From: Nanobdellati archaeon
GTDB taxonomy: Archaea; EX4484-52; GLR71
Length of the DNA: 37,118 bases
Assembly: GCA_019429125.1 (NCBI GenBank)
Contig: JAHYJO010000015.1
Span: forward strand, 1 to 37,118
Direction: 5' to 3'
The translations under genes and the position numbers were made by a program. The notes under the pieces were generated by a model, which searched no databases, was not told the origin of the DNA, and saw only the letters and a list, made by a program, of their open reading frames with translations. This document shows positions 1,876 through 34,061 of the stretch, piece by piece. Positions within the stretch are counted from its first letter, which is position 1; each line of letters starts with the position of its first letter.

Positions 1876-1893
1876 CAAAAAGATGAACCAACC

Positions 1894-6931: not shown

Positions 6932-8584
6932 ATGAGACATCTTACAACCACAAGAACCTTATCATTTATATCAATCCTAGCACTTCTAATTTTCATAACC
7001 ATCCCACAGACTTACGCATACGACACCTGGACCACCTACCAAAACGATATACGACATGTAAGCGCAATCACAGCCCCACAATTCACAAACGCCTCAGAAG
7101 AAATAAAACTTAAATGGCGATATACCATAGGCCTTCAGGTAGATTCCTCTCCAGCAATTGCAGACATTGATAATGACGGAAGACTAGAAATAATAATTGG
7201 CTCTTTTGACGGCCACCTTTACGTCTTTGACAGCGAAAACGGAAACATAGCTTGGAAATACAAGACCGGTGGAGGTATCATCTCATCCCCTACAATAATA
7301 GACATAAACAATGATTCCCAACTAGACATCCTATTCGGCTCAGACGACACATACATCTATGCCCTAAACGGCAACAACGGAACACTTATATGGAAATTCA
7401 AGACCGGAAACCTAGTACACTCATCCCCAACAGTAACCGATATAAACCATGATGGAACACTTGAGGTAGCTATTGGTTCAAGTGATGGATATGTATATCT
7501 TCTTAACGCAAGAGACGGAACAGAAATCTGGAAAAATAATGTAGGTGGAATATTTTTATCTTCTCCTGCAATTACAGACATTAATGAAAACAACATAGAA
7601 GACATAATCATAGGCACCGGTAACTTCAACATAGTAGCTCTTGAAGGCACAGATGGACACATTATATGGAACTACACGACCGATGACGTAATCTTAGGTT
7701 CAGTTGCGATTGCAGACATTGACAACAACAATGAACTTGAAGTCGTATTTGGTTCATCAGATTTCAATATATATGCCCTTACCGCTAAAACAGGCATCCT
7801 AAAGTGGTCACAAAAAACAGACGATAGAGTACTTTCAACACCCGCAATATATGACATAAACAATGACAACACAACAGAGATTGTAATAGGCTCCACAGAT
7901 AGACACCTATACATCCTTAACGGCTCAAACGGTGAAATCTTGAAAACATACACAACCGAAGACGAAATCATGTCATCACCAGTATTAGTAGACATAAATA
8001 ACGATTCATATATGGATATAATTGTCGGGTCAAACGACAGGTCAATATACGCAATCAACCATCAAGGAACTGAAATCTGGTCTTTTGCAACAGAAGGCAA
8101 GATTGTCTCACCTCCCACAGTTTTAGACATTGATAATGATGGTTTCCTCGACGTGATTTTCGGATCATATGATGGAAAGATATATGTACTATCAACAAAC
8201 CCCGATACAGAAACACTTAACCTTGAAGCTGACCTTAATGCAGACTATATAGAGACCTTAACTGAATATGAAGAACGCCTACCAATTTCTGCAAATTATA
8301 ACACTATAGATTCTAACTCCGGCAAAAACATAGACCCGAACAATATTACAGACGATAATTATTATGACAATAATGCATCATACGTAACAGCAACAAATAA
8401 TAACATGACAAAAAAAACAACAGATTCAGAAAATAACAAAACTGAAAACAACATTACAAAAAAGATAGACATATTAACTTATGCAAAATCTCTTGCTATC
8501 TTTACAATATTAGTCTTATTAATATTCATAACTTATAGGATATACAAAAAAAGAACAAGCATAGATTATCTTCTTAAAAGATAA
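6932..8584 (+). CDS. Membrane-anchored eight-repeat beta-propeller protein (PQQ / FG-GAP type)
   Basis: This 550-aa exported protein begins with a signal sequence (about residues 1-29, hydrophobic core LSFISILALLIFITI, then QTYAYD). Eight repeats of about 43 residues follow. Each has a start like SSPxIxDIxxD, then LEIIIGSxDGxIY and a late GxxxW, as in PQQ/pyrrolo-quinoline-type and FG-GAP propellers. The D-x-D/N-x-D loops resemble calcium sites. An Asn-rich stalk of about 70 residues is followed by a transmembrane helix (LAIFTILVLLIFITYRIY) and a short basic cytoplasmic tail. The topology therefore places an extracellular propeller on a membrane anchor. Substrate or partner is unknown; adhesion or surface scaffolding are typical guesses, and no catalytic residues are recognised. 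It stands alone after tRNA-Ile. Confidence 0.85.
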   Translation: MRHLTTTRTLSFISILALLIFITIPQTYAYDTWTTYQNDIRHVSAITAPQFTNASEEIKLKWRYTIGLQVDSSPAIADIDNDGRLEIIIGSFDGHLYVFDSENGNIAWKYKTGGGIISSPTIIDINNDSQLDILFGSDDTYIYALNGNNGTLIWKFKTGNLVHSSPTVTDINHDGTLEVAIGSSDGYVYLLNARDGTEIWKNNVGGIFLSSPAITDINENNIEDIIIGTGNFNIVALEGTDGHIIWNYTTDDVILGSVAIADIDNNNELEVVFGSSDFNIYALTAKTGILKWSQKTDDRVLSTPAIYDINNDNTTEIVIGSTDRHLYILNGSNGEILKTYTTEDEIMSSPVLVDINNDSYMDIIVGSNDRSIYAINHQGTEIWSFATEGKIVSPPTVLDIDNDGFLDVIFGSYDGKIYVLSTNPDTETLNLEADLNADYIETLTEYEERLPISANYNTIDSNSGKNIDPNNITDDNYYDNNASYVTATNNNMTKKTTDSENNKTENNITKKIDILTYAKSLAIFTILVLLIFITYRIYKKRTSIDYLLKR

Positions 8585-11232: not shown

Positions 11233-12324
11233 TCAAACTGGTCTAGAGTTCCGTCTAAGTTCTGAAAATGATGCAATGTTACCGGCACCACGTTTAATCT
11301 CATTCTCAACAAACGAAAGTTCATCACCTGAAAGCTTAGCTCTCTGATCTGCATCAATTATGACAGGAGGTATACCATAAGCACTGTTATGCCTTGACAT
11401 TGAAAATATAGATGACGCAATTTTAGATGCAACCATAACAGGATTATTTTTTGCAATAAAATCAATCCTTAATGCCCTATCAAACTCAGAAGGTCGAATA
11501 TAAAATGAAAAAAGATTATTTTCAAAACCTTTCACTTCAGAAGTCACACCACCATCAATACCATCTACAGTCCTAAAAACAGAAGTCCTTTCCCCCACAG
11601 AAAGAAGGTAGGTCAATAGATGCGTATCTTTGACATTCACAAGAGACTTGACCATCTCAATATCAAGCATAGACCTACAATTTTTGATAAACGCCTGACT
11701 CCTAGAATCTTCAACAATACCAGAAAGAACTGTATCTTTCTCAAGAGCTAACATATACATATTCTTCACTGTCCTAAGAAGGTCATCATATGCCTGCTTA
11801 TTCTTAACAGAACCAGTACTACCCCCAGAAACCGAGGGATGTAAAATCAAAGATCCATCAAGGAAAAGAAAATCTAAATCATTTTGTGTGCTAAGCATAT
11901 TACAAGCAAGACCCAATTCCCTCCCAAGTCGTACAATGGATGCAATTGACGAAAAACTAGTAGGATCAAAAGAGGATTTAACTATTTTTATTTCGGGTTT
12001 AGGAAATGCAGACGGATAATACTCAGATCCTAAAAGTTTTCCAGCTTTATACTTAAAGACTGCGCACACAGCTCTCGTAATTATTATATTGACTCCATGA
12101 TACTCTTTCTGAATAAGACCTCCATCAATACCCCCAACATTACAATTTAACGAATTATTTAGTTCAACTTTGACAAGCAATGTATCATCAAGAAAGTTAC
12201 CACCACATTCACCCGCAGAACCTTTAGTCTTATCTCTTAGTATTTTTGCAATAGATACTACCTTTTTCTCCCAACCGATAAGGTCCGAAACTATTGCATC
12301 TATCCCAGAACTAATATCAACCAT
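11233..12324 (-). CDS. nurA: DNA end-resection nuclease NurA
   Basis: NurA is the 5'-3' nuclease that works with the HerA translocase and Mre11-Rad50 in archaeal end resection. The NurA-domain motifs are present: GGIDGG with D67, FLDGS with D156, the GIVEDSRS loop near 202-209, and IDADQR with D324 near the C-terminus. Length (363 aa) fits the family. I chose ATG at 12324: a GATATATAAT element is centred about 26 bases upstream, giving a leaderless start, while a TTG at 12342 would lie before that transcription start. Unlike the classical herA-mre11-rad50-nurA operon, no herA is in this window and mre11-rad50 lies 7 kb away on the other strand. Its neighbours are unrecognised genes on the same strand. 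Confidence 0.9.
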   Translation of the reverse strand: MVDISSGIDAIVSDLIGWEKKVVSIAKILRDKTKGSAGECGGNFLDDTLLVKVELNNSLNCNVGGIDGGLIQKEYHGVNIIITRAVCAVFKYKAGKLLGSEYYPSAFPKPEIKIVKSSFDPTSFSSIASIVRLGRELGLACNMLSTQNDLDFLFLDGSLILHPSVSGGSTGSVKNKQAYDDLLRTVKNMYMLALEKDTVLSGIVEDSRSQAFIKNCRSMLDIEMVKSLVNVKDTHLLTYLLSVGERTSVFRTVDGIDGGVTSEVKGFENNLFSFYIRPSEFDRALRIDFIAKNNPVMVASKIASSIFSMSRHNSAYGIPPVIIDADQRAKLSGDELSFVENEIKRGAGNIASFSELRRNSRPV

Positions 12325-12345
12325 AAATAAAATTATCTGCAAAAG

Positions 12346-13277: not shown

Positions 13278-15269
13278 TCAATTCATGAGCCTTAAAAACA
13301 TTTCATTCCTGCATGTTACATCCTTTAACACAGATAAAGTATCAGGCTCACAACAATAAGTCTTTGCCAAAAAAGAATACGATTTTTCATGATTTGCAAA
13401 CAGTCTAACAACTTCACCTAAAAGAGCAGTATTATTTTTTTGAAAAATACCCGAAAAAGTATCAGACACAGGTGAAACCTGCAATTTAGGGACATAACTT
13501 AAATCCGCAAATTCATACATAGGTTTTGAGTATGCTTTTTCTTTATCCTGTAATGATTTCTCTATTTTTTCAATTGTACGTTCATCAATATTGAAAAGAC
13601 AACTTGTCTTTAATCTTGAACCAGGCCTCTTCAATCCATATTTTTTATCAATATCATTTATCTCCATACTGAGTAACTTTAGAAACAATGTAACATCTTC
13701 CTCACAATCATTACCTGATTTAATAGTAGGATAATCATCAATCAATGTATTGCGCATCAATTCAAACCTATCCCTTATATCTTCAAGAATATCCTCACTA
13801 AAATTAAGCATATACTTTTCAATTATTGGCTTTACACCCTCAAGCTCATTACAGATATATTTAATGCCATCAAACCCATAATCAAAAAGCATTGTCTTTA
13901 TAGATTGCTCAAAAAGTTCAAGAGTAACAACGTCAGTTGCTTTTTTAATCTTATTAAAATATATTCCATTTGTAAATGCATATTTTTCTATAACTTCAGA
14001 CCACTCATCATTTTTACTATTTCCGACAAAATTACATATTACCCTTTTCACATTTCCTTTAGAATCAAATTCTTTAAGCCCTGAAAAATCCTCAATATTA
14101 TCACTAGTAAGTTTAAAAATGACTTGTTCGGGTTTAACATCATATGCAATAACTGCGTGAGGATAATCAAGACCACAAACATTTTCAATATCAACCATAT
14201 CTTTCAAAGAAAAAGCAGTAGGGTCTGATGAAAGTATATCTGATATTGTACTTATAGTTCTAATCTTCTCACTCACCCCAAACTCACGAAAATAACGATT
14301 TAACAGATTTATCTTTTTAGGACCGAATGCAAGATTAACATATCTATTTAAACTATTATTATCATCTATATCTATCTTTCTTGCACCAACAGACAATGTA
14401 CTACCTATACTCATCACCTTACCATAATCAGAACCAGACATGACAAGATCAGAAATTTCAAAAATAACTTTTGCGATATCATTATCAGACAGAGTCAAAA
14501 ACGCAACCGTATCATAACATTTTCTTAGAAGCATAAGGTCCTGAAAATATGTCTGTGTCATACAGGTTTTTTCAGGATGCGCACACATTTCTTTCAAAAA
14601 ATGTAACTTCGCCTCAAAAAAAGCCTTACCTCCATCAACCTTATGAAGATTATATATTTCCGCAAACCCTCGACTTAAATGCAAATCCATCTTTGAAAGT
14701 TTTTCATAATCATATATTCCCTCAAGACTTATTATACTTTTTCCATTTAGGGAAATATCAGACATATCCATATAATCAGAGAAAATTTCATAAGGTGAAT
14801 TAAATATACCCTGCTTAACACCCACATCCATAAGCCCAATCATGTTTGAATTATGAGGATTAAATGTCAAATTCCCATCTTGAAAAAGAGTATTATCAAC
14901 ATCAAAAACAGCAATATTACGTTTTTTGAAACCATCATTCATAAGATCCCTAAAATAAAGATCAACAAAAAAATTATCATATGATAACAATCCACCGGTC
15001 AATAAATTAGAATTTGTATTTTGCATTTCAAAAACATTAGAATCCCAAAAGTCCCAATATTCATTAATACGTTTCCGATTATCCTCAGTAATCCTTAATT
15101 TCACTCGCTCTGCCACATCTTTAACAGTATCATTTACCTCTGAATCCGAAGATGAAATATCAGGTAACGTTTGACTGCTCACACCATCTAAATCATCATC
15201 AATTGCAGGTTCAACAACAGACTTCCCAAATAACCTCAATAAACTATTAAAAACAGGTTTTCCGCCCAT
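13278..15269 (-). CDS. Large protein with HAD-like core, unknown function
   Basis: This 663-aa soluble protein has a recognisable haloacid-dehalogenase-type motif I, VFDVDNTLF (D123, D125), after a roughly 115-residue N-terminal region. Possible motif II is FLTLSD (T259 or S261), motif III lysine is in FGPKKINLL (K319), and motif IV may be STISD (D344), where the first Asp of the usual GDSxxD appears replaced by Ser. The spacing, with a helical cap of about 120 residues after motif I, resembles SerB/HAD-IB enzymes. About 280 further C-terminal residues match nothing I know. Phosphatase activity is possible but the altered motif IV makes it uncertain. It has an upstream TATA-like CTTTATATATAG and leads a probable operon with the 305-aa gene before nurA. 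Confidence 0.7.
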   Translation of the reverse strand: MGGKPVFNSLLRLFGKSVVEPAIDDDLDGVSSQTLPDISSSDSEVNDTVKDVAERVKLRITEDNRKRINEYWDFWDSNVFEMQNTNSNLLTGGLLSYDNFFVDLYFRDLMNDGFKKRNIAVFDVDNTLFQDGNLTFNPHNSNMIGLMDVGVKQGIFNSPYEIFSDYMDMSDISLNGKSIISLEGIYDYEKLSKMDLHLSRGFAEIYNLHKVDGGKAFFEAKLHFLKEMCAHPEKTCMTQTYFQDLMLLRKCYDTVAFLTLSDNDIAKVIFEISDLVMSGSDYGKVMSIGSTLSVGARKIDIDDNNSLNRYVNLAFGPKKINLLNRYFREFGVSEKIRTISTISDILSSDPTAFSLKDMVDIENVCGLDYPHAVIAYDVKPEQVIFKLTSDNIEDFSGLKEFDSKGNVKRVICNFVGNSKNDEWSEVIEKYAFTNGIYFNKIKKATDVVTLELFEQSIKTMLFDYGFDGIKYICNELEGVKPIIEKYMLNFSEDILEDIRDRFELMRNTLIDDYPTIKSGNDCEEDVTLFLKLLSMEINDIDKKYGLKRPGSRLKTSCLFNIDERTIEKIEKSLQDKEKAYSKPMYEFADLSYVPKLQVSPVSDTFSGIFQKNNTALLGEVVRLFANHEKSYSFLAKTYCCEPDTLSVLKDVTCRNEMFLRLMN

Positions 15270-15350
15270 ATAAACAAATACTTTAGTTGAAACTTTATAT
15301 ATAGTTTATCCAAAGATATGATAAAAAACGCCTAAAAAACCAGAAAGACA

Positions 15351-15764
15351 TCAATTAACAGAATTATCAGATTTTATTTCATGATTCTTTTCAAGAAGAA
15401 GTTCAATTATGACCGAAAGTTTATTACTAATTTCACAAAGACGCTCATCAACCCTGTTTGAGGTATCGACCTCTGTACCTTTTTTAAATTCTAAAGAATA
15501 CTCAGTTTCTATTTTTCCAGACTCAGATAATGCATTGTTATCGTAAATGGTCTTATTTTCTATCATCTTCTTTTCAATAAGAGTTATATTCTTAAAATTT
15601 CCAGACACAGAATAAGAATATTCAACAGTATCACCCACACAGATATTTTCAATATAAGACGGTTCCCATACTGAAAAACTATCCCGCGATATACCTATTA
15701 TAAAATAAGATTTACCATTCCTGCTTTTTTTAGGTTCACTTATGCTTTCAACAATACCTTCCAT
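15351..15764 (-). CDS. Small OB-fold-like protein with C-terminal helix
   Basis: This 137-aa protein has an N-terminal stretch (about residues 1-66) that reads like a small OB-fold domain: EGIVESISEP, a basic KKSRNGKSY turn, FIIGISRDSFSVW, a central VGDTVEYSYSVSG, and a last FKNITLIEK strand. Similar small domains occur in archaea and phages and often bind single-stranded DNA; that function is inference here. A variable linker follows, then an amphipathic helix (RLCEISNKLSVIIELLLEK) that may mediate oligomerisation. The ATG has a TATA-like TTTATAAATT about 28 bases upstream, so it is probably a leaderless single gene. It lies between the 663-aa HAD-like gene and a membrane-anchored protein. 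Confidence 0.65.
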   Translation of the reverse strand: MEGIVESISEPKKSRNGKSYFIIGISRDSFSVWEPSYIENICVGDTVEYSYSVSGNFKNITLIEKKMIENKTIYDNNALSESGKIETEYSLEFKKGTEVDTSNRVDERLCEISNKLSVIIELLLEKNHEIKSDNSVN

Positions 15765-15815: not shown

Positions 15816-16682
15816 CTAATCCAAGAGCCAAGTAACAAATCTATCACTTATTGAAAGTCCAGAAAGGCTGTATCTTATTTTCAAACTCCAAGAACTCACA
15901 GGAATCTCAAACACAACACGACCACTACTTTCAGTTCCTGTATAAATTCTCTTAGATTTAGGCAACGCATCATATCCTTCATATATAATTGGTTCAAATG
16001 TATAAACATTATTTGAAATTAAAGTGATTTTACTTGACCCAACATAAAAAGACGAACCACCAGTATTATTCACCGAAAAATAAGCAATAAGAAACTGTTT
16101 ACCCGCTCTTGCAGTATCAGTTAGATTTTTACCATCTTCTTCTTCCTGATAAATATAACTTGTAGAGAACTCATAAGACTCAAGAGTCACATCAATTGCG
16201 TCAGTTTCAACAACCACACCGACCTTAGCAACAACCTCTCCAGCCTCAAGGATATAAGATGTATCCTGTTCAGATTCAGAAATTGAAAAATCAGAAACCA
16301 CATCATACTCAGATATAGAACCAGTACCATGCAAACTAGTATCATCAACTTTCGAATCATTAACGATTATACCATTATTTCCACCATCAATTGATGGAGT
16401 CCCTAAAGATATACCATCCTTATCTACTATAATATCATTTTGTTTTTTATAATCTGAATCATCAACGTCATCAGATAAAATAACAAAAAAACCAACAGAG
16501 ACCATAATAATAACAACAAAAACAATTGCATAAACAAACGATTTCTTATCTATTGAAAAAGTAATCTTTTCAGAAGCTACATCTTTTGAATCATTTTGTA
16601 TATTATTTAGAGTATTTACACTCTTTGCTTTCTTTACTTCCACTTTAGCTTCAGAACTTTTAACAGTCTTTTTTTCAGGCAT
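15816..16682 (-). CDS. Membrane-anchored DUF4352-like protein
   Basis: This protein of about 288 aa has a basic cytoplasmic N-terminus (about 48 residues, KK-rich), one transmembrane helix (FVYAIVFVVIIMVSVGFFVIL) and a low-complexity Asp/Ser/Gly stalk. The outer beta-sandwich domain, from about AKVGVVVETDAIDV to the C-terminus, resembles DUF4352 / telokin-like domains: an ARAGKQFLIAYFSVNNTG core and a later SSGRVVFEIP strand. Such domains are extracytoplasmic binding modules of unknown ligand. ATG at 16682 was chosen because TTTATATAAA lies about 27 bases upstream; an in-frame upstream codon would add an odd hydrophobic leader. It follows the PEP-synthase-like gene on the same strand but has its own promoter. 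Confidence 0.7.
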   Translation of the reverse strand: MPEKKTVKSSEAKVEVKKAKSVNTLNNIQNDSKDVASEKITFSIDKKSFVYAIVFVVIIMVSVGFFVILSDDVDDSDYKKQNDIIVDKDGISLGTPSIDGGNNGIIVNDSKVDDTSLHGTGSISEYDVVSDFSISESEQDTSYILEAGEVVAKVGVVVETDAIDVTLESYEFSTSYIYQEEEDGKNLTDTARAGKQFLIAYFSVNNTGGSSFYVGSSKITLISNNVYTFEPIIYEGYDALPKSKRIYTGTESSGRVVFEIPVSSWSLKIRYSLSGLSISDRFVTWLLD

Positions 16683-16704
16683 ACTATATACTAGTCCTTT
16701 GTGA

Positions 16705-16714
16705 TTTATATAAA
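16705..16714 (-). promoter_or_regulatory. TATA box of the DUF4352-like gene
   Basis: TTTATATAAA is palindromic and centred about 27 bases before the ATG at 16682 on the minus strand. It supports the shorter protein start and a leaderless transcript. Confidence 0.55.
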
Positions 16715-16772
16715 TAAAAAGAATAACCAACTCAAGAATTAAAAAATATAGTATTATCAAATTAAGAACAAC

Positions 16773-19721
16773 CTAATAATTACCACGCTCGCGCATGATA
16801 TTCAAAAGCATCTTTCTTTCGACACGCGCAACAATATACTTTGATACTTTTGCCTTGTCAGACGGAACAACAATTGCATCCACACCGAACTCTACAAGTT
16901 TCTCAATAATCTCAGAATCATTTAGCATTGACCCACCAATACTTACAGGAACCTTATTTTTCTTGTAACCATCAATTATCATCTTTATCATCCTCAATAC
17001 ACCAGGATGTTTTGCATCAAAATGCTTGTTAACTTTCTCATTTGAAGAATCGATACCAAGCATATGCTCAGCTAACCTATCAGAATCAATGAATACAAAA
17101 TCTATGCCAGCCTTAACAAATTCAGTTGACGCCAATCCTGCGGCAGGTACCTCAACGCTTATGCCCACTTTAAGGTTAGCCATATCAACCCCACATTCTT
17201 TAAAAAGACTATTTATTTCATACACTTGCTGTGGATGATGCACAAAGGGAAGAAGTATCTCGATATTTTTATACCCTTTAAGTATAAGATTATTAATTGC
17301 CTTAAGTTCAGCTTTAAATATTGCAGGTGAATCAAGAGTCCGTCTTATGCCTCGCCACCCAAGCTTAGGATTAGTTTCAACCATCTCATGCCCCCCTCCG
17401 GGAAGCTTCATTAATATTGACGTCTGGGCGCTAAGTGTCCTAAAAGTTACAGGCTTAGGGTATGAAGACTCAACAATAGGACCTAATTTAATCTCAATAT
17501 ATTTGACCAGCTCATCCTCCATACCTTCAGAAAGTATCTTGTCCGGATGCTTTCCTAAATTTAATAGCACAAGTTCAGATGGAAAAAGACCTATACCATC
17601 AAAAACTTCCTCAGTCTTCTGCAAATTTCCCGCAAGCACTTTAACTTTTGTTCCAGTAATCATTGCCAACGGATCATCTTCAATCATATTACTCACATCA
17701 GAATTATTATAATTATTACAATTATTATTACTGTTATTATTACGGTTATAATCACTATTGTTAGTATTAGTATTAATATTAGCATTAATATTAGTATTTG
17801 CATTATTGTTAGTATTTGCATTATTGTTAGTATTTGCATTATTGTTAGTATTTGCATTATTGTTAATATTTGAATTATTGTTAGTATTTGCATTATTGTT
17901 AGTATTTGCATTATTGTTAATATTTGAATTAATATTAGTATTAATATTAGCATTAATATTAGCATTATTGTTAGTATTAGTATTATTTATCCTATTATCT
18001 ATTCTGCTTCCAACATTATTATAAACACTATTATTTAAATTAGAATTTTTATTTTCTAAAACTGAAAAATCACGATTACCAGATTCTTTAGATTGTTTTA
18101 AATGTTTGTTATCAAATAGTCTCACAAATGTATTATCCTCCCTACGAGATAAAGACATCACATTCTGTAAAGACTGTTCAGCATGTCGTAACTGTTGTGT
18201 TTGAGCACCAATATCTGTACATGCGCCCCCTAAACTTTCAACAGGTTCAAAATCACTCTTTATCTCAGAAACACTGACTGACTGCGAATCCCCACCATAT
18301 GATTTTGAAAGATTAGATACCTCTTGTGGCATCTCATTTGCAACCCTTTCTTGAGGAGGTATTTCTTTGACATATATTTTTCCGGAAGTTGCATCGATGG
18401 CAATCCGTGTACCCTCAACAAGACCCCCACAAATACCTTGACAACTGACAACTAAAGGAATATCCAGCTCACGACATAATATAGACATATCAGACAAGAG
18501 ACCACCATTTTCTGAAATGACACCACCGACACGATTAAGAACAAGTATTGATGATGATTCAATGACGTGCGCCACAAATATGTTTCCCGCCCTAACTTTA
18601 GCAACATCTGAAATGCTGTACACTTTGACAGCCAGACCTTCTGCATTCCCACTATTTGCACCAATACCCTTAAATGACGGCGGGTTCGGAGTATCATAAA
18701 TTGCTTTTAGTGGTTTATTTATAGTTGAAATGTTAGACACATCAACAAGATACAATTTATCTCTTTTAAATACCCATTCAATGTATACTGGATATTTTGC
18801 AAAAGCTTCAACACTTTTTGCAAGATTACCTACTGAAACAATCTCATTCTTATCAATAGACTCTGAATTAGTAAGCTCCGGCAACACTTTTTCTTTTATC
18901 ACATCACCACTGACAGCATGTTTAACAAGACGCCATTCTTTAGCATTTATCTTCTTACCTTTTAATGTTGAAGAGGTCTTATCAATTATGAACACGTCAG
19001 GTGTAATCTCCCCAAAAGACACAAGACCGCAACCAAAACTGCTTTCAACAACAATCTCATTAACATTATTTGTCACAGGATTCGCAGTAGAGCACATACC
19101 TGATTTTTCACCATCTATCATCTTCTGGATAATGACACCTAAAAAAATATCCTGCCCTCCATTATATTTTTGCCGTGCAAAAATTGCTTCATCACTATAT
19201 ATATTTGACCATGCTTCCTTTATTGCATCTATCACGCCTTGAAGCCCGCTCACATGAAGGTATGACTTGTAAAAACCCCTAAACGATATCTTTTTAGAAC
19301 CCTCTGTAAATACACTTGATCTTACAGCAACTGACGCATTATTTCCACCAGCATTTATAGTGCCTAACGCATCATGGTCAAGATTCTGCATCCCAGGACT
19401 CATCCCCAAAGAAGAATATGCCAATTTTATCTCATCTTTAAGATTTTTAGGAATTTTACCAGAAATTATAAGTTCTCGAACCTTCTTTGATTTCTCCGCA
19501 AGTTCATCAGGACCACAAGAACCAATTTCCTGAAGTAACCGAATTATAGATTCAGAAATATTATTTTCTACAGCAAACTCATGAAAACCATCATTTGTAA
19601 TCACAAAACCTTCAGGAACTGGAAATTTTGCAGCCATAAGCTGTGACAATGCAATTGCCTTATCTCCTGCTTTTTCACGGTCTTCAACCGAAAGCATTGA
19701 CAGGTCGAAAATAAATTCCAT
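16773..19721 (-). CDS. PEP-synthase-like protein with degenerate active sites and Asn-rich linker
   Basis: The 982-aa protein has the full phosphoenolpyruvate synthase layout. An ATP-grasp-like N-terminal domain (AGDKAIALSQL, VAVRSS, EKSG...TANPVT, GEITPD) is followed by the swivelling phosphohistidine domain and a C-terminal TIM barrel (FRTLSAQT, LGWRG, GISVEVPAAG). Key residues are changed. The phosphohistidine motif GGxTCHAAI reads GGLLSDMSI (His to Asp). The ATP-site QxRP near the end of the first domain reads VDVS. The metal-binding TNDL reads SDRL, and the catalytic Cys motif GICG reads SIGG. Between the swivel domain and the barrel sits an insert of about 190 residues, including about 110 of Asn/Thr/Ala repeats. 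It is therefore probably a non-catalytic regulator or scaffold. A GGTAGGT site precedes the ATG, with a TATA-like element near 19756. Confidence 0.85.
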   Translation of the reverse strand: MEFIFDLSMLSVEDREKAGDKAIALSQLMAAKFPVPEGFVITNDGFHEFAVENNISESIIRLLQEIGSCGPDELAEKSKKVRELIISGKIPKNLKDEIKLAYSSLGMSPGMQNLDHDALGTINAGGNNASVAVRSSVFTEGSKKISFRGFYKSYLHVSGLQGVIDAIKEAWSNIYSDEAIFARQKYNGGQDIFLGVIIQKMIDGEKSGMCSTANPVTNNVNEIVVESSFGCGLVSFGEITPDVFIIDKTSSTLKGKKINAKEWRLVKHAVSGDVIKEKVLPELTNSESIDKNEIVSVGNLAKSVEAFAKYPVYIEWVFKRDKLYLVDVSNISTINKPLKAIYDTPNPPSFKGIGANSGNAEGLAVKVYSISDVAKVRAGNIFVAHVIESSSILVLNRVGGVISENGGLLSDMSILCRELDIPLVVSCQGICGGLVEGTRIAIDATSGKIYVKEIPPQERVANEMPQEVSNLSKSYGGDSQSVSVSEIKSDFEPVESLGGACTDIGAQTQQLRHAEQSLQNVMSLSRREDNTFVRLFDNKHLKQSKESGNRDFSVLENKNSNLNNSVYNNVGSRIDNRINNTNTNNNANINANINTNINSNINNNANTNNNANTNNNSNINNNANTNNNANTNNNANTNNNANTNINANINTNTNNSDYNRNNNSNNNCNNYNNSDVSNMIEDDPLAMITGTKVKVLAGNLQKTEEVFDGIGLFPSELVLLNLGKHPDKILSEGMEDELVKYIEIKLGPIVESSYPKPVTFRTLSAQTSILMKLPGGGHEMVETNPKLGWRGIRRTLDSPAIFKAELKAINNLILKGYKNIEILLPFVHHPQQVYEINSLFKECGVDMANLKVGISVEVPAAGLASTEFVKAGIDFVFIDSDRLAEHMLGIDSSNEKVNKHFDAKHPGVLRMIKMIIDGYKKNKVPVSIGGSMLNDSEIIEKLVEFGVDAIVVPSDKAKVSKYIVARVERKMLLNIMRERGNY
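17791..17934. repeat. 18-bp minisatellite encoding an Asn-rich linker
   Basis: Eight tandem 18-base units run head to tail, type TTAGTATTTGCATTATTG on the plus strand. Units 1-4, 6 and 7 look identical, unit 5 (17863-17880) has two changes, and unit 8 (17917-17934) is diverged. On the coding minus strand each unit gives six residues of the NNANTN type. Degenerate versions extend over roughly 17700-18050. Confidence 0.9.
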
Positions 19722-19815: not shown

Positions 19816-20595
19816 TTATTTTTTATTGCCTTCTTTATAGACTCCAACAATCACAAAAGACATGAAAGGAAACGCCAAAAACAACACAAAAAACATTGCA
19901 ACAGCAATCGCCACTAAAAATGGTATAGATAGATAAATACTAATCTCTGCCAAATATCCAGCAATTGCAGTAACTCCTAATATTACAAGCATAACTGAAA
20001 AAAAGATTACAAATACTGACAGTATTACCCCCACAACAAGAGAAACATTACTTGTGAAAAACTTTGCACTTTTCTTGACTGCCTCAAACCCATCAACTTT
20101 AGTGACGGCAACGATAGTAATTGAAAATATAAGTGATAACTGAACCAATAAAGCAAAAGCAAACACAGCCGAATATACAACAACAGAAGCAAACGTAGAA
20201 TCAAAAACATAATTAGTCATTAAAGTATTAATTCCAAAACCAACAACATATGCAATTAATTGAATAACGATAAACGCTTTGAAAATATCCATCCAACGTG
20301 TATCTATACCAACACGAATATCCGCAAGCTTAATCTTTTTTTTAGCTTTCATAAGATATATACTATAATAAACACCACCTGAAAGCATTGCAAGCACAAA
20401 CGAAAGGAAAATACTCATAACAGATATCATTGAAGATGTACCAACAGATAACTGTTCTAGAGTCACAAGACCCGTAACCATAAAAAAACCTTCAATAATA
20501 AGCACCACAGACCAAAAAACAAGACCTATAAACAAAGATTCACGGAAATTATCTTTCACAAGATTAAACGAATTTTTCAATATTTCACTGACTGC
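19816..20595 (-). CDS. Multi-pass membrane protein (DUF7847-like / GDPD membrane-domain-like)
   Basis: This protein of about 259 aa has roughly six hydrophobic helices and a start (MAVSEILKNSFNLVKDNF) typical of archaeal membrane proteins resembling the glycerophosphodiester phosphodiesterase membrane domain or DUF7847. The cytoplasmic loop KAKKKIKLADIRVGIDTRWMDIFKAF fits that family, as does VTKVDGFEAVKKSAKFFTSN later on. No enzymatic motif is seen and the function is unknown. ATG at 20595 is favoured over ATG at 20607 since the family normally begins at MAVSEIL. A TATA-like TTATATATAGG is present near 20648. It is divergent from nadM. Confidence 0.7.
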   Translation of the reverse strand, partial: AVSEILKNSFNLVKDNFRESLFIGLVFWSVVLIIEGFFMVTGLVTLEQLSVGTSSMISVMSIFLSFVLAMLSGGVYYSIYLMKAKKKIKLADIRVGIDTRWMDIFKAFIVIQLIAYVVGFGINTLMTNYVFDSTFASVVVYSAVFAFALLVQLSLIFSITIVAVTKVDGFEAVKKSAKFFTSNVSLVVGVILSVFVIFFSVMLVILGVTAIAGYLAEISIYLSIPFLVAIAVAMFFVLFLAFPFMSFVIVGVYKEGNKK

Positions 20596-20730
20596 CATAA
20601 AAACCATCTACAAGAGTTACTCAATGTTATTTACTTAAACCCCTATATATAACTTAACATCAATAGAGATATTACAAACATTTAAAATATTTACGAAATC
20701 ACTTATCTCATCTTATAGTCGATGATACTA

Positions 20731-21227: not shown

Positions 21228-23642
21228 TCAAATCTTATTTCTAAACCTTTTCAAAAGAAGCGAATTAGTCACAACACTAACTGACGACATTGCCATCGCA
21301 AGCGCTGCAAACTCAGGTTTAAGATACCCTAATGCTGCAATAGGAACCCCAATTGAATTGTAAAAGAGTGCCCAGAACATGTTCTGTTTAATCTTAGCCA
21401 TTGTAGCCTTACTAAGTTTTATTGCGCCGACAACGTCACGCAAATCATTTTTAACAAGCACAATTTCACCCGTCTCAATCGCAACATCAGTTCCGGACCC
21501 TAAAGCAATCCCCACATCAGCCTGTGCAAGTGCAGGCGCATCATTTATGCCATCCCCAACCATAGCAACTTTCTTTCCAGACTCCTGCAACCTTTTGATA
21601 TTTTTCGCCTTATCTTCAGGCAAAACTTCAGACAACACATTATCAATTCCTGCCTTTTTAGCAATAGCATTAGCAGTCCTTTTATTGTCCCCAGTTATCA
21701 TTGTTACATCTATTCCCATAACTTTAAGACTAGCAACTGCCTCACGAGAACTCTCTTTGATAGTATCAGCGACAGCGATTATACCTGACAATTTCCCGCC
21801 GTAAGCTACAAGCATGGCAGTCTTGCCTTCATCTTCAAGCTTTTCCATCTGATCTGTAGTACTCTTATCATAAACTATCTTTTCCTCAGACATAAGTTTC
21901 CTGTTCCCAAGCAACACTTTCTTACCATTATAGACACACTCAACACCATGACCTGATATCGCCTTAAATTTTTCAGGTTCTAAAATCTCAATATTTCTTG
22001 ATTTAGCGCCAAGTACGATAGCTTCACCTAAAGGATGTTCAGAATGTTTTTCAACAATGGCAGAAACTTTAAGCAATTCATTTTCATCAAAATCACCCAA
22101 AGTTATAATGTCTGTAACCTCAGGTTTACCTTTTGTCAATGTGCCAGTCTTATCAAATACGATTGATTTTATCTTGTACACACTTTCTAAAGCCGAACCT
22201 CCTTTAATCAATATACCTTTCTCAGCGCCGACACCAGTCCCCACCATTATAGCAGTCGGTGTTGCAAGACCTAACGCGCAAGGACATGCAATAACTAATA
22301 CAGCAATTGCAGGAAGAAATGCGCCAATAAACGTTGAACCCACTACAAAATACCATATTACAAATGTAAGAAGCGATAGTACTACCACACCCTGAACAAA
22401 ATACCCAGAAATCATGTCTGCATATCTTTGTATAGGCGCTTTTGACCCTTGAGCATCTTCAACAAATTTTATAATGTGCGCGAGCGCCGTATCAGCTCCG
22501 ACCTTTGTTGCCTTAAATTTAATGACACCATTCTTATTTATTGTAGCACCGATTACAGTATCTCCTTTGACTTTTTTAACAGGCATACTCTCACCTGTAA
22601 TCATAGATTCATCAACAGACGAGTCACCATCAACAACCGCACCATCAACCGGTATTTTTTCACCAGGTTTAACTATTATAATATCACCTACGATAACTTC
22701 TTCAATAGGAATATCCATCTCTTTACCATTCCTAATAACTTTAGCAGTCTTTGCCTGAAGCCCTATCAACTTTTTTATTGCGTCACTTGTTTTCCCTTTA
22801 GCTTTCGCCTCAAGATATTTACCTAATACGACAAATGTAATAAGCAATGCTGTCGTCTCAAAAAATACTGCGTCTCCAAAATGATTAGGATAAAACAATG
22901 CCAAGATACTATAGACATATGCAGCTGAGGTTCCAAGAGTAATCAAGACATCCATATTTGCAGACTTATTTTTGAGTGCAAAATATGTACCCCTAAAAAA
23001 CTGCCAACCAACATAAAAAAGTACAGGTGTAGTAAGTATAAACTGAATATACATATTAAATGGGAAATCCATAAATACCATACTTAAAAGAAATACAGGC
23101 GCTGTCAATATTGCTCCAATAATCAATTTTCGTTTCTGCAAACTTATCTCATCAACTTTGGTATCATCTTTTGCATTATCACCAGAAAAAGCACCTTTAT
23201 ATCCCAGACTTTTTATCTTTGTCAAAATCATTTTATCAGTCAATATCTCTGAATCATACTCAAGATTCATAGTCTCAGTTGCAAAATTGACTGACACTTT
23301 TTTAACACCATCAACTTTTTTGAACACGTTTTCAGTGTTTAGTGCGCACGAGGCACAATGCATACCTTTGACCCTTACATCTGCCTTAGTAATACCTGTC
23401 ATTTTACTTACATCATTTCCCACACCTATAGCTTTTGCCTTATAACCGAGCTTATTTATTTTTGAAGTTATATCAGTTATAGATGTTTTTTCATCATCAT
23501 AGTTAACTGTAACTTTCTCAACCGCAAAATTAACATTTGCTTCAGAAACACCATCAAGATTATTCAATACATTCTCAATAGTGAGTGCGCACGAGGCACA
23601 ATGCATCCCAGATATATCAAAAATATCAGTCTTTTTTCCCAT
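21228..23642 (-). CDS. copA: Copper-exporting P1B-type ATPase CopA
   Basis: This is a Cu(+)-transporting P-type ATPase of 804 aa. Two N-terminal heavy-metal-associated domains each carry GMHCASC (C15/C18 and about C96/C99). The transmembrane metal site has CPC (VIACPCALG), and the last helices carry YN (FYNSIG) and an MSS stretch (MAMSSVSVV), the copper-type signature. The cytoplasmic core has TGES, the phosphorylated [17 protein letters not shown] and [10 protein letters not shown], all intact. ATG at 23642 is one base after the PadR stop; ATG at 23651, overlapping that gene, is an alternative. It is co-transcribed with the PadR-TRASH regulator, which probably senses the exported metal. Confidence 0.95.
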
Positions 23643-23643
23643 A

Positions 23644-24069
23644 TCATTCATCTCTCCCATCTTTAAACGATTTTGCGCAATGGCAACAACAAAATACATA
23701 ATGTTTACCATTTATATCTTCCTTGTGCCCGCCTTCATAAACTTTGCAACCGCAATGTGCGCATGTTGAAAGGCTCGGTTCAATTGCAATCTTTATAATT
23801 TCACCAAATCGTGAAATCATGTTATTAACAAATTTCTTGCCTGACACTGTCAATTTATACTCAACTTTATCTCTAGACCCCGGCGCCAAAGCATCAATGT
23901 AACCGTGCTCCTCAAGCGTCTTTAAAAACGGATAAATCTGTCCAGGACTAGTATTTTTTTCCATTTTAGCGCCCGTCTCTTTAATTATTTCATACCCCGT
24001 TTTAGGACCTTCCAAAAGTAAAAGGACAGTATAAAATTTCACCATATTTGTTATCTTGAGTTCTTCCAT
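23644..24069 (-). CDS. PadR-family regulator with C-terminal TRASH metal-binding domain
   Basis: The 141-aa protein has a winged-helix PadR-type N-terminal domain ([14 protein letters not shown], then [19 protein letters not shown], the recognition-helix region, and [12 protein letters not shown]). Its C-terminus has the pattern C-x2-C-x20-C-x3-C (CAHC ... CCCHC), which fits the TRASH metallochaperone/sensor domain found in archaeal copper regulators. Since copA follows after one base, it most likely responds to copper and controls its own operon. ATG at 24069 is preferred: TTTAAATAGT is centred about 27 bases upstream, while a GTG at 24087 would precede the likely transcription start. An inverted repeat at 24113-24130 lies just upstream of this TATA element. 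Confidence 0.88.
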
Positions 24070-24091
24070 AGATGTAATAATGCACACAAAA

Positions 24092-24102
24092 CTATTTAAA
24101 AT
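24092..24102 (-). promoter_or_regulatory. TATA box of the padR-copA operon
   Basis: An A/T-rich element reading ATTTAAATAG-like on the minus strand is centred about 27 bases before the PadR ATG at 24069. This gives a leaderless or near-leaderless transcript. Confidence 0.55.
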
Positions 24103-24112
24103 GACCTGTCGG

Positions 24113-24130
24113 TTTATGATATGTCATAAA
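24113..24130. promoter_or_regulatory. Inverted repeat, candidate operator for the copper regulator
   Basis: TTTATGA, spacer TATG, TCATAAA is a perfect 7-bp inverted repeat just upstream of the padR TATA box, in the divergent region shared with the Gdt1-family gene. A longer ATGAC ... GTCAT pair (24101-24105 and 24123-24127) overlaps it. Binding by the PadR protein is inference. Confidence 0.4.
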
Positions 24131-24157
24131 TTTATTATTTGAACTAAAATCAAAAAA

Positions 24158-24165
24158 TTATATAA
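24158..24165 (+). promoter_or_regulatory. TATA box of the Gdt1-family gene
   Basis: TTATATAA is centred about 26 bases before the ATG at 24188, consistent with a leaderless transcript. Confidence 0.55.
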
Positions 24166-24187
24166 CTCACAACACCAAAATAAACAC

Positions 24188-24751
24188 ATGCTTTCTGATT
24201 TCATAATACCATTTATGATTGTAGGTCTCGCCGAACTAGGTGACAAGACACAGATTACCATGCTTGCGCTTTCAACACGTTTCAATGACCCTTACAAGAT
24301 ATTTACAGGTAGCATGCTAGCATTCCTTTTAGTTGACGGCACAGCCATAGCTTTAGGGAGCATGTTATCCTCATACATATCCATATCACTAGTACATCTC
24401 TCTTCCGGAGTGATATTTCTAGCTTTCGGAATTTACATATACTTCTCAAAAGACGAAGAAGAAACAAAAATAAAACCCAAATCCGCATTTATATCATCAT
24501 TTGCAATAATATTTCTTGCAGAATTAGGCGACAAGACACAGGTGACCTCACTTCTTTTTGCCACACATTTCAATCCCTGGATAGTCCTTGTAGCAGTCAT
24601 GATAGCGCTTGCAACACTGACAGCAACAGCAATAATCCTTGGCACAAAAATCAAGAGACATATAAAACCCAAAACAATAAAATACACAGCAACAACAATG
24701 TTCATACTGTTCGGACTTTTCGAAATATATTCATACCTAAAAATAGTATAA
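24188..24751 (+). CDS. Gdt1/MneA-family cation transporter (UPF0016)
   Basis: The 187-aa membrane protein has two homologous halves, each with the diagnostic ExGDKT motif: AELGDKTQI near residue 16 and AELGDKTQV near residue 113. Roughly six transmembrane helices surround them. Members of UPF0016 move Mn2+ or Ca2+ in exchange for protons (yeast Gdt1, bacterial MneA). Manganese export is the best guess for an archaeon. It is divergent from the copper regulator and copA, so the area forms a small metal-homeostasis island, although different metals may be involved. Confidence 0.88.
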   Translation: MLSDFIIPFMIVGLAELGDKTQITMLALSTRFNDPYKIFTGSMLAFLLVDGTAIALGSMLSSYISISLVHLSSGVIFLAFGIYIYFSKDEEETKIKPKSAFISSFAIIFLAELGDKTQVTSLLFATHFNPWIVLVAVMIALATLTATAIILGTKIKRHIKPKTIKYTATTMFILFGLFEIYSYLKIV

Positions 24752-25498: not shown

Positions 25499-27385
25499 TC
25501 AAATCCTGTAAAACTCATAAAGCTCAGCTGACAAGTCACCGCTTATATATATCTGAGCCTCGCGCGGAAGAAGCCCCCTGTAAGGATTCCATAAAAATCT
25601 CTTATCCATAAGGACAATGACACCCCTATCCGTCTCAGACCTTATACACCTGCCTGCCGTCTGCATAACTTTGTTCATCGCAGGATAAGTATATCCATAA
25701 TCCCATCCTTTCTTAAACTTCATCTCGTAATAATTAATTAATGCTTGGTTCTTTATATCTGGCCTTTCAAGTGGAAGCCCCACAACAACTACCCCATTCA
25801 TGATCTCGCCCGGAAAATCCACACCCTCACTAAAGTTAGCCCCGACAACCGCAAAAAGAGCCGCAGACTTATCAGTTTTCACAAAAGACGCAAATTTATT
25901 AAATAACATTTTCTTATCATTTTTAGTCATACCTCGTGCCTCAAGAAGTATCTCTTTATCAATTGTAAACTGTGCCATCAACTCATAGACCGTATTAAGC
26001 ATGCTATATGACGGAAAAAATACCCCCAAGTTTCCAGAAGTATTATTGATAACTTTCACAATATTGCCAGCAATCTTATATGACTGCTCCTCGCTCCGTT
26101 CAGTAAATTTAGTAGTCACATCATCTTTTATGAGAATCAGACAATTCTCGCGTGGAAAAGGAGAATCAAGAACAAGTGATTCCGTAAGCATCTTATTAAG
26201 ACCCAAAACTTCCATAAACATATCAACAGGAGTAAGAGTCCCTGACATAAGTATCACAGAATGAAGCTTCTCAAACAAGTTCTTTGTAAGCATAGAAGGA
26301 TCAAGACAATCATAGCATACCTCAAATCCTACAACACCCATAATATTCCTTTCAGTCTTAACAATCCTTACAAACCCTAAATCCAATCCACACCAATCAA
26401 GCAAGAACTTACCGACACCACCTATATAAGAAATCTTACGTTCATTGGTAACAATGTCTCCTGCAATGACCAATTCATTTACAAACTGATTAAAATCATC
26501 ATATACATCTTTTACAATTTTTACCAGAAATTCTTTTTTTGCTAGTTTCTCATCTTCTTTCCCAGTATGTGTGATACAATATTCATTTAGAATGTTCCTG
26601 AATTTACGCAGATTTTTTGATATGTCCTGAAAATTAAATTTATCAGATTCTTTTATCGCCTTATCTAAAACATCAGACGTAAGATGTGACGACATTAATT
26701 CACGCACCCTTCCAGGCACATTATGCGCCTCATCAATGACAAGTATTATATCCCCCATATCTTTCTCAAGCTTTGACAAAAACATTTTCTGCACAAACGG
26801 GTGAAGCATGTGATAATAATCAGCAATTATGACATTTGAATCTTTTAGGTATTGCATAAGTATCTCATAAGGACACAACTCATTCTGCAAGCAGATATCT
26901 TTGGCATCTTCAGAAGTCATGATATGTTCTTTTAGTTCACTTATAACCGAAACAGCCACAGGTGAAAGGTCCCCTCCTTTTTTAAATATCTTCTTGTAAT
27001 GCGAACATTTCTCTGAACCTTTAAGCTTCTTGCACATCTCAGACAAATTTTCAGAATTCTGCATTTTTGCATCTTCAAGCGCGCACAACCATCTTTTACC
27101 CACAATGTTTGCCACAGAAATGTCAATGTCTGGATTTTTTGCCTTGATAGCTTTCAAAGTATCAACAACAATTTTGTGTTGCATATGGCGTGGAGTCAGA
27201 AACACCACAGTCTTGTTGTTCTCAAGCGCATACTTAACAGCAGGCGCAAGCGCAGACACAGTTTTTCCGATACCTGTCGGTGCATGAACTACATAATTTT
27301 TTTTAGCTGAGAGACATTTATATACATCATCCATGAACTTAATCTGTCCAGGTCGTGTCTTATCAAAAGGAAAAAGAGTCTGCAT
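25499..27385 (-). CDS. XPD/Rad3-like (DinG-related) superfamily 2 helicase
   Basis: The 628-aa protein has the helicase motifs of the XPD/DinG group: Walker A APTGIGKT (residues 35-42), DEAH box VIDEAHNVPGR (D218, E219, H221), SGTLTPVDMF and a late QTAGRCIRSETDRG. Between Walker A and the DEAH box are cysteines at 101, 118, 127, 165 and 171; four of them probably hold the 4Fe-4S cluster typical of this group. Such enzymes unwind DNA 5' to 3' in repair. ATG at 27385 starts the usual LFPFDKTRPGQIKFM beginning. The SprT-like protease follows in the same operon, and the divergent ThiI-like gene starts 96 bases away. Confidence 0.9.
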   Translation of the reverse strand: MQTLFPFDKTRPGQIKFMDDVYKCLSAKKNYVVHAPTGIGKTVSALAPAVKYALENNKTVVFLTPRHMQHKIVVDTLKAIKAKNPDIDISVANIVGKRWLCALEDAKMQNSENLSEMCKKLKGSEKCSHYKKIFKKGGDLSPVAVSVISELKEHIMTSEDAKDICLQNELCPYEILMQYLKDSNVIIADYYHMLHPFVQKMFLSKLEKDMGDIILVIDEAHNVPGRVRELMSSHLTSDVLDKAIKESDKFNFQDISKNLRKFRNILNEYCITHTGKEDEKLAKKEFLVKIVKDVYDDFNQFVNELVIAGDIVTNERKISYIGGVGKFLLDWCGLDLGFVRIVKTERNIMGVVGFEVCYDCLDPSMLTKNLFEKLHSVILMSGTLTPVDMFMEVLGLNKMLTESLVLDSPFPRENCLILIKDDVTTKFTERSEEQSYKIAGNIVKVINNTSGNLGVFFPSYSMLNTVYELMAQFTIDKEILLEARGMTKNDKKMLFNKFASFVKTDKSAALFAVVGANFSEGVDFPGEIMNGVVVVGLPLERPDIKNQALINYYEMKFKKGWDYGYTYPAMNKVMQTAGRCIRSETDRGVIVLMDKRFLWNPYRGLLPREAQIYISGDLSAELYEFYRI

Positions 27386-32096: not shown

Positions 32097-34061
32097 TCAT
32101 TTCTTCAACTCCGATATCTTATCTCTCAACAATGCAGCCTTCTCAAATTCAAGCATTTCAGCCGCCTCATTCATCAATTGCTCAAGTTCTATAATCAGCG
32201 TCTCTCTTTCAGAATCAGACATCTTAAGACTGTCTATTTTCTGTATAGCCTTTATATTTGAAAGTTCATCTTTAGGGATAATCCTGTCATGTACAGCTTT
32301 GACTATAGTCTTAGGAGTCATATTATGAACACAGTTATACTCATTTTGTATCTTTCTGCGCCGTAAAGTCTCATCCATCGCAAACTTCATAGAATCACTG
32401 ATTCTGTCCGCATATAATATGACTCTACCTTCACTGTTTCTTGATGCCCTGCCTATCGTCTGTATAAGAGACCTAGAATGCCTCAAAAAACCTTCCCTGT
32501 CGGCATCAAGTATGGCAACCAGACCAACTTCAGGAATATCAAGACCTTCCCTCAATAAATTGACACCTATAAGACAGTCAAACTTACCAAGCCGCAAATC
32601 ACGTATTATATCAGTCCTCTCAAGAGTCTTAATGTCAGAATGCATATATCTGACTTTTATTCCTTTAAGTGCCATAAATTCAGAAAGCTGTTCCGCCTGC
32701 TTTTTAGTGAGTGTTGTCGCAAGTGTTCTGAAACCAGACTCGTTCTGTTTCTTTACTTCAACCATTAAATCTTCAATCTGCCCTAAAGATGGCCTGACCT
32801 CAATATCAGGATCTAAAAGCCCAGTAGGCCTAATTATCTGTTCAACAACCTCACTACTTTTTTCAACTTCATAATTTTGCGGTGTAGCTGACAAATAAAT
32901 TATATTATGTATAGCTTTATTGAACTCCTCAAATTTAAGGGGTCTATTATCAAAAGCAGAAGGTAACCTAAAACCATAATCTATAAGACTTCCTTTTCGC
33001 GAATGGTCACCCGCATACATACCATTAATCTGTGGAATTGTAACATGAGACTCATCAATCACAATCAGAAAATCTTTAGGGAAAAAATTAAGTAAAGTTG
33101 ATGGTGCCTCACCAGGTTTCCGGCCATCAAAATGTCTGGAATAATTTTCAATGCCGTTACAGTATCCAATTTCGCTTATCATCTCAAGATCATATTCAGT
33201 CCGCTGTTCTAATCTTTGCGCCTCAACTAGCTTATTATTTTCAACTAAATATTTCAGCCTATCTTTAAGCTCAAGCCGTATAGTTTTTATAGCCTTTTTA
33301 GTAGTATCCTCAGGCACTACAAAATGTTTTGCAGGAAATATAAACATGTTTGAGACTTCATCTCTTAATTTCAATGTCACAGGATGAAGCTCTTTTATAG
33401 ACTCAACCAAATCACCTAAAAGTTCAATTCGAATTATTGTAGACTCATAGCTTAGATGTATGTCAATAACATCCCCACGTACCCTAAATCTACCTCTCTG
33501 AATTTCAGTATCATTTCGCTCATACTGCATATCAAGAAGACTATATATTATTTTTTCACGACCAACAATCATACCCTCACTGATTTCAAGAGACATAGCC
33601 TTATAATCTTTAGGTGTACCGATACCATATATGCAGGATACACTTGCAACAATTATAACATCATCACGCGTAAGAAGCGATCTTGTGGCAGAAAGCCTAA
33701 GCCGGTCTATATCTTCATTTATAGACGCATCTTTTGCAATGTAGGTGTCACTCTGGGGCAGATAGCTTTCAGGCTGATAATAATCATAGTAACTCACAAA
33801 ATATTCCACCGCATTATCTGGAAAAAATTCCTTGAACTCATTATAGAGTTGCGCAGCAAGAGTCTTATTATGTGTAATGACCATCACAGGTCGTTTCCAT
33901 TGAGATATTACATTTGCGACAGTAAACGTCTTTCCCGAACCAGTCACACCAAGAAGCGTCTGATGTTTTTTATTTTTCTTAAGTCCTGAAACAAGCGCAT
34001 CAATGGCTTTACTCTGATCACCTTTGGGTTCAAATTTCGAGACAAGTCTAAACTCCACCAT
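32097..34061 (-). CDS. uvrB: Excinuclease ABC subunit B
   Basis: UvrB is the damage-verifying helicase-like subunit of bacterial-type nucleotide excision repair; in archaea it is usually taken to come by transfer from bacteria. The 654-aa protein has Walker A GVTGSGKT (38-45) and the DNA-clamping beta-hairpin region YDYYQPESYLPQSDTYI. Further motifs are VIDESHVT, IYLSATPQ, QTIGRASRNSEGR and a C-terminal UvrC-binding UVR helix pair (IELEQLMNEAAEMLEFEKAA). All motifs look intact. uvrA and uvrC are not in the window. The ATG has a T/A-rich element about 27 bases upstream. It also coexists with XPD-like and Ogg2 repair genes of archaeal type. Confidence 0.95.
   Translation of the reverse strand: MVEFRLVSKFEPKGDQSKAIDALVSGLKKNKKHQTLLGVTGSGKTFTVANVISQWKRPVMVITHNKTLAAQLYNEFKEFFPDNAVEYFVSYYDYYQPESYLPQSDTYIAKDASINEDIDRLRLSATRSLLTRDDVIIVASVSCIYGIGTPKDYKAMSLEISEGMIVGREKIIYSLLDMQYERNDTEIQRGRFRVRGDVIDIHLSYESTIIRIELLGDLVESIKELHPVTLKLRDEVSNMFIFPAKHFVVPEDTTKKAIKTIRLELKDRLKYLVENNKLVEAQRLEQRTEYDLEMISEIGYCNGIENYSRHFDGRKPGEAPSTLLNFFPKDFLIVIDESHVTIPQINGMYAGDHSRKGSLIDYGFRLPSAFDNRPLKFEEFNKAIHNIIYLSATPQNYEVEKSSEVVEQIIRPTGLLDPDIEVRPSLGQIEDLMVEVKKQNESGFRTLATTLTKKQAEQLSEFMALKGIKVRYMHSDIKTLERTDIIRDLRLGKFDCLIGVNLLREGLDIPEVGLVAILDADREGFLRHSRSLIQTIGRASRNSEGRVILYADRISDSMKFAMDETLRRRKIQNEYNCVHNMTPKTIVKAVHDRIIPKDELSNIKAIQKIDSLKMSDSERETLIIELEQLMNEAAEMLEFEKAALLRDKISELKK

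Follow-up and report, generated by a model that had tools for sequence, protein, structure and literature searches.

The 982-residue protein encoded at the centre of this study is, judged from its residues, a full-length pseudoenzyme of PEP synthase (PpsA) that is conserved across its lineage, and it very likely lacks dikinase activity. Its gene, pseudo-ppsA, lies in the window, i.e. the whole stretch of 37,118 nucleotides that was analysed, and is under strong purifying selection. Pseudoenzymes are common and the protein is in this respect of a known kind; a literature search found no published example among PEP synthases.

Domain organisation

The sequence-only reading had described a full three-domain PEP synthase architecture and, indeed, Pfam finds PPDK_N, PEP-utilizers and PEP-utilizers_C (aa 701-968, 6e-42) in the order typical of PEP synthases (Table 1). 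The product scored 373 bits with TIGR01418 and 408 bits with NF005057, which is below the cut-offs of these two NCBIfam equivalogs (739.75 and 598, respectively). Mobile domain and barrel are connected by a linker of ~230 aa, which is shorter in relatives.

Table 1 Position of pseudo-ppsA, its domains, key residues and flanking genes in the window
Feature	Position	Strand	Remark
pseudo-ppsA ORF, 982 aa	16773..19721	-	ATG start, no internal stop
PPDK_N ATP-grasp domain, aa 17-336	18714..19673	-	Pfam, 3e-58
PEP-utilizers mobile domain, aa 378-447, normal seat of the phosphohistidine	18381..18590	-	Pfam, 1.7e-14
Asn-rich disordered linker, aa 456-684, variable in length	17670..18356	-	dN/dS 0.5-1.0
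18-bp tandem repeat, 11.9 copies, encoding the Asn-rich tract	17773..17987	.	longest in this genome
PEP-binding TIM-barrel domain, aa 685-982	16776..17669	-	dN/dS and AlphaFold model
D411 in the phosphohistidine position	18489..18491	-	alignment; Asn in two sister species
DVS replacing QxR of QxRP, aa 327-329	18735..18743	-	alignment
DSDR replacing G(T/S)ND, aa 879-882	17076..17087	-	D879, D881 and R882 invariant in the genus
G929 replacing the catalytic Cys (Cys831; CGQ motif)	16935..16937	-	alignment
K21, ATP-site Lys, kept (PPDK K22)	19659..19661	-	alignment
R134, ATP-site Arg, kept (PPDK R92)	19320..19322	-	alignment; Lys in two sister species
E315, ATP-site Glu, kept (PPDK E323)	18777..18779	-	alignment
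E857, barrel Glu, kept (PPDK E745)	17151..17153	-	alignment
263-aa predicted membrane protein	19816..20607	-	no Pfam match; directly upstream of pseudo-ppsA
DUF4352 protein	15816..16760	-	downstream of pseudo-ppsA

Changed and retained active-site residues

Residues were mapped by alignment of the window protein to intact archaeal PpsA and are compared in PPDK numbering; the roles of residues so numbered follow what is generally known of this enzyme family. The phosphorylated His of the PEP synthase motif GGxT(S/C)HA is absent from the window protein. QxRP of the ATP site has become DVSN, with D327 in place of Q335 and S329 in place of R337, and D321 is replaced by Y313. In the barrel, the metal/substrate motif TND reads S880/D881/R882. 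The alignment thus bears out the four changes noted from the sequence alone (phosphohistidine, QxRP, TND and catalytic Cys). The accompanying description of every active centre as altered went too far, since K21, R134 and E315 of the ATP site and, in the barrel, R761 (R561), R790 (R617) and E857 are kept. R92 and E323 are taken here as the equivalents of Arg95 and Glu324 of the Flaveria enzyme. In Flaveria PPDK, these two residues contact ATP (PMC5507339).

Selection on pseudo-ppsA within the genus

Each of the six further species of the genus (G001-G006) has a pseudo-ppsA with the same altered sites, and the frame is open in 7/7. Y313, S329, S764, D879, D881, R882 and G929 are invariant across the seven species, as are the equivalents of R561, R617 and E745; position 411 varies between Asp and Asn. 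Comparison with the two nearest species (G006 and G003; dS 0.7-0.8) gave a dN/dS of 0.14-0.18 for the whole gene, 0.04-0.05 for the barrel, 0.08-0.10 for the ATP-grasp domain and 0.6-0.9 for the linker. For the same pairs, the intact PpsA of these genomes gave 0.05-0.06, and the constraint on the barrel is about that of a working PpsA. For the six pairs tested, which span an overall dS of 0.36-1.6, the dN/dS of the whole gene was 0.12-0.18 and that of the barrel 0.02-0.14.

A decaying pseudogene, or a redundant copy being lost, could be suspected since families f2 and f5 of the window phylum yielded no member of the lineage, f7 of that phylum has only stand-alone barrel fragments of it and residues are lost in a graded manner. 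Against this stand the open frame in every species, the low dN/dS values at these distances and the invariance in the genus of the altered residues themselves. A pseudogene is ruled out by the dN/dS values together with the open frames, and we regard decay in either form as extremely improbable.

Origin in an older archaeal PPSA lineage

The same genome contains an intact ppsA (G000:C9, L040:9277-11649), whose product shares the overall PpsA alignment with the window protein and is 27-29% identical to it over its parts but has fully canonical motifs. Since this PpsA belongs to another subfamily in the tree, it is not a recent parent of the window gene, and a recent duplication of the genome's own ppsA is ruled out. 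In a tree whose long branches leave it uncertain how the most degenerate members connect, the window gene was placed in one clade with archaeal PPSA of the Pfu type and with the 'GWHG' PpsA found in a second phylum of archaea. By this placement, it is an end member of an older archaeal lineage of the Pyrococcus-PPSA type. The 'GWHG' PpsAs (e.g. L106, L107 and L021) often share the L10e or Dph2 neighbourhood of the degenerate members but have intact catalytic His, Cys, ND and QxRP, with His in place of the barrel Arg (R617 position), and are mostly the sole dikinase gene of their genome. Pyruvate phosphate dikinase and PTS enzyme I have mobile and PEP-barrel domains homologous to those of the window protein, but the similarity is far weaker and their own catalytic residues are present.

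In the window phylum (34 genomes examined), degenerate members were found in families f1, f3, f6 and, in part, f4; those of the second phylum come from f11 and f56-f60. The lineage members of G007, G008 and G011 still carry the phosphohistidine. As far as the sequences tell, the lineage degenerates recurrently, in two archaeal phyla. The core of the earlier proposal, a PEP-synthase scaffold that is conserved but inactive, is supported: the changed residues are shared by all seven species (D411 apart), dN/dS is far below 1 and an intact ppsA is present elsewhere in the genome. Neither an intact orthologue nor a pseudogene was found within the genus; more distant members of the lineage are intact or half-intact, and the window gene belongs to a recurrently degenerating lineage instead of being an isolated oddity.

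Besides, some unusual relatives were seen. Family f7 encodes stand-alone PEP-barrel proteins of 252-261 aa (L092:3435-4217; G014:C48), of which the one in G019 has the D-x-D pattern of the degenerate lineage. An over-long ppsA frame in G040 (L036) contains an intein-like, LAGLIDADG-like insert that ends at the phosphohistidine motif; ppsA frames of 1086-1277 aa in G066, G147, G090 and G107 may contain inteins, a guess from their length.

Association with a second dikinase

A second PPDK_N gene was found in 18 of the 19 window-phylum genomes bearing a pseudo copy. Over the whole lineage, an intact member is the only dikinase gene in 24 of 25 genomes, and a degenerate member occurs alongside a second dikinase in 33 of 36. 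The second enzyme in the degenerate genomes is either another PpsA or a PPDK-like protein of ~870-930 aa. G066 and G068 contain short PPDK_N fragments, which were not scored as dikinases, and the counts leave out G002 and G070 (unclear) and G168 (truncated gene, one PPDK_N gene). Initially, 25 intact genomes were without and one with a second dikinase, compared with 2 and 33 degenerate ones. G186 was recounted as degenerate because its second contig carries an altered metal motif; the counts then became 24/1 and 3/33, with a Fisher p of about 1e-12 that is uncorrected for phylogeny. The two contigs of G186 (L132 and L133) overlap by 820 bp in this gene with 95.9% identity and are probably strain variants. 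The three degenerate genomes without a second dikinase (G170, G163 and G186) are all incomplete assemblies. A phylogenetically independent test of degeneration in the presence of a second dikinase yielded two independent contrasts and was not significant on its own; since the tree holds only these two, the pattern is strong but not phylogenetically proven.

Loss of residues across degenerate relatives

In 27 intact PpsAs 154 columns are invariant, and degenerate relatives keep 50% of them (clade-averaged). Seven positions picked after the alignment was seen (pHis, D321, Q335, R337, N768, D769 and Cys831) were kept to 18%, compared with 50% for all invariant columns (clade-averaged; resampling p = 0.002), but for all 12 testable catalytic positions, kept ones included, the difference in retention was not significant (p = 0.07). 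N768 and C831 were kept to 0%, D769 to 3%, R337 to 18%, D321 to 20% and pHis to 22%; K22, R92 and E323 were kept to 96, 88 and 78%, respectively. These values are clade averages that leave out f59, in which some members keep His and Cys. The pattern points to a loss of phosphotransfer in the degenerate clades, with nucleotide binding possibly kept.

Family f11 and the window phylum mostly have Asp at the position of G766, with Asp or Glu replacing N768; these residues may form a new acidic site. This raises the question of an altered chemistry, in which the cluster E857-D879-D881 would bind a metal anew and D411 or another residue would serve a different reaction. The recurrence of the changes G766 to D and N768 to D or E among degenerate proteins of the window phylum and in f11, their invariance in the genus and the very low dN/dS of the barrel would fit such an enzyme. 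However, the metal-binding Asp is replaced by R882, a Gly occupies the position of the catalytic Cys and the D-x-D pattern is absent from f59 and f60. The position of D411 is Asn in two sister species and N, P, R or H elsewhere; because it is so variable, a phospho-Asp in place of the phosphohistidine is unlikely as well. In sum, we consider an altered chemistry unlikely.

Gene neighbourhood

Many members of the lineage, intact or degenerate, have as neighbour the gene for L10e, a ribosomal protein, or Dph2, a diphthamide gene. L10e likewise adjoins some genes of another PpsA class (genomes G055, G101, G105 and G091; loci L033, L129, L136 and L143), which suggests that one ppsA has replaced another in place at a conserved L10e-ppsA locus; a link between ppsA and L10e was not found in the literature search. 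The neighbourhood in the window genus differs from this setting. There, the gene for the 263-aa membrane protein is co-directional with and directly upstream of pseudo-ppsA in all six loci for which upstream DNA is available, and a DUF4352 protein is encoded nearby in 6/7 loci, often with genes between.

Further genes of the window were recorded. Two ORFs of 663 and 137 aa without Pfam match (13278-15764, minus strand) are kept together near pseudo-ppsA in the genus. A heavy-metal P-type ATPase is adjoined by a PadR/TRASH-domain regulator and a GDT1-type cation/proton antiporter (21228-24751), and a BamB/PQQ-like beta-propeller protein is encoded in this archaeal genome at 6932-8584. The window also contains the DNA repair genes for a Mre11/Rad50-like pair, NurA, an XPD-like helicase (beside a SprT-like protein) and UvrB (610-4167, 11233-12342, 25499-27385 and 32097-34061).

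Structural relation to octahedral archaeal PPSA

The full-length AlphaFold model (8 sequences) had a pLDDT of 42 and was unusable, but the barrel was modelled with a moderate pLDDT of 69 and a pTM of 0.73. Its top structural match was 8a8e, 'PPSA C terminal octahedral structure' (TM 0.80), followed by 9dae, the multimeric PEP-binding domain of Staphylothermus marinus PPS; 8a8e was also the top PDB sequence match of the window protein (9.8e-118). All three domains align with the Pyrococcus furiosus (8a8e) and S. marinus (9dae) enzymes, and the Pfu-type enzymes fall into the same clade of the tree. Unlike these enzymes, the window protein is devoid of the phosphohistidine, QxRP, the metal-binding ND and the Cys, and the proteins of the genus have a disordered linker of ~100-230 aa between mobile domain and barrel. 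We know of no explained purpose for the large octahedral archaeal PPSA complexes. The PPS of S. marinus is a 24-subunit octahedral complex (PMC8100219); apart from this review, a literature search on the 24-mer was without match. In PPDK, the central domain carries the phosphoryl group about 40 Å between the sites (PMC5507339). The long disordered tether and the lost His would fit a protein that no longer shuttles.

Possible functions of the pseudoenzyme

Strong selection on a dead enzyme implies some non-catalytic role. Taken as a whole, the explanation that the pseudoenzyme is kept for such a role, and with less confidence for a structural one, is to our mind about evenly balanced between right and wrong. 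The window protein would be unable to interconvert pyruvate and PEP. The ancestral archaeal PPSA lineage would have had a second, non-catalytic role, which would be the reason for retention, and release from catalysis would have followed once another dikinase took over. With regard to structure, the barrel, which builds the octahedral 24-mer in the Pyrococcus and Staphylothermus PPSA, may assemble a large oligomer, with the mobile and ATP-grasp domains suspended from it by the long disordered linker, and K21, R134 and E315 may permit binding of ATP or AMP without transfer. Such a complex could be a scaffold or a nucleotide sensor, possibly located at the membrane via the adjacent 263-aa membrane protein. 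An oligomeric nucleotide-binding scaffold is our best, albeit unproven, guess, made because the modelled barrel matches 8a8e and 9dae and the S. marinus enzyme forms a 24-subunit complex. Since the degenerate members, pooled, keep fewer of the invariant positions in the barrel than in the ATP-grasp domain (41% vs 63%), a barrel-based scaffold may not be the role they share.

Alternatively, the protein could be a metabolite-sensing regulator that binds PEP or pyruvate (via R761, R790 and E857) or ATP or AMP and, through direct contact, regulates the intact PpsA or some other partner. The invariance in the genus of the R561, R617 and E745 equivalents and the kept K/R/E of the ATP site agree with such a sensor, as does the finding that the pseudo gene directly adjoins an intact ppsA in G007. 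But this tandem occurs in one genome only, and the barrel arginines are gone from most other families of the window phylum. Further, the pseudo copy persists with either type of second dikinase, PpsA or the PPDK-like protein of ~900 aa, which argues against a fixed enzyme partner. We therefore regard a regulator of this kind as rather doubtful.

Returning to the non-catalytic role, we tentatively suggest, as a possibility that may well not hold, that a second, hidden and non-catalytic function resides in the archaeal PPSA lineage, e.g. that of a nucleotide sensor or an octahedral scaffold, which the L10e/Dph2 neighbourhood perhaps ties to translation. It would become visible where several lineages with a second dikinase, in two archaeal phyla, lost catalysis and kept the protein. 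Automated annotation could label such genes ppsA and so overstate the gluconeogenic capacity of small archaeal genomes. For the octahedral PPSA complexes, a dead homologue that selection maintains offers a natural case of separation of function, and a three-domain dikinase of central metabolism that is kept whole without its chemistry would suggest that archaeal PPSA has a role besides making PEP.
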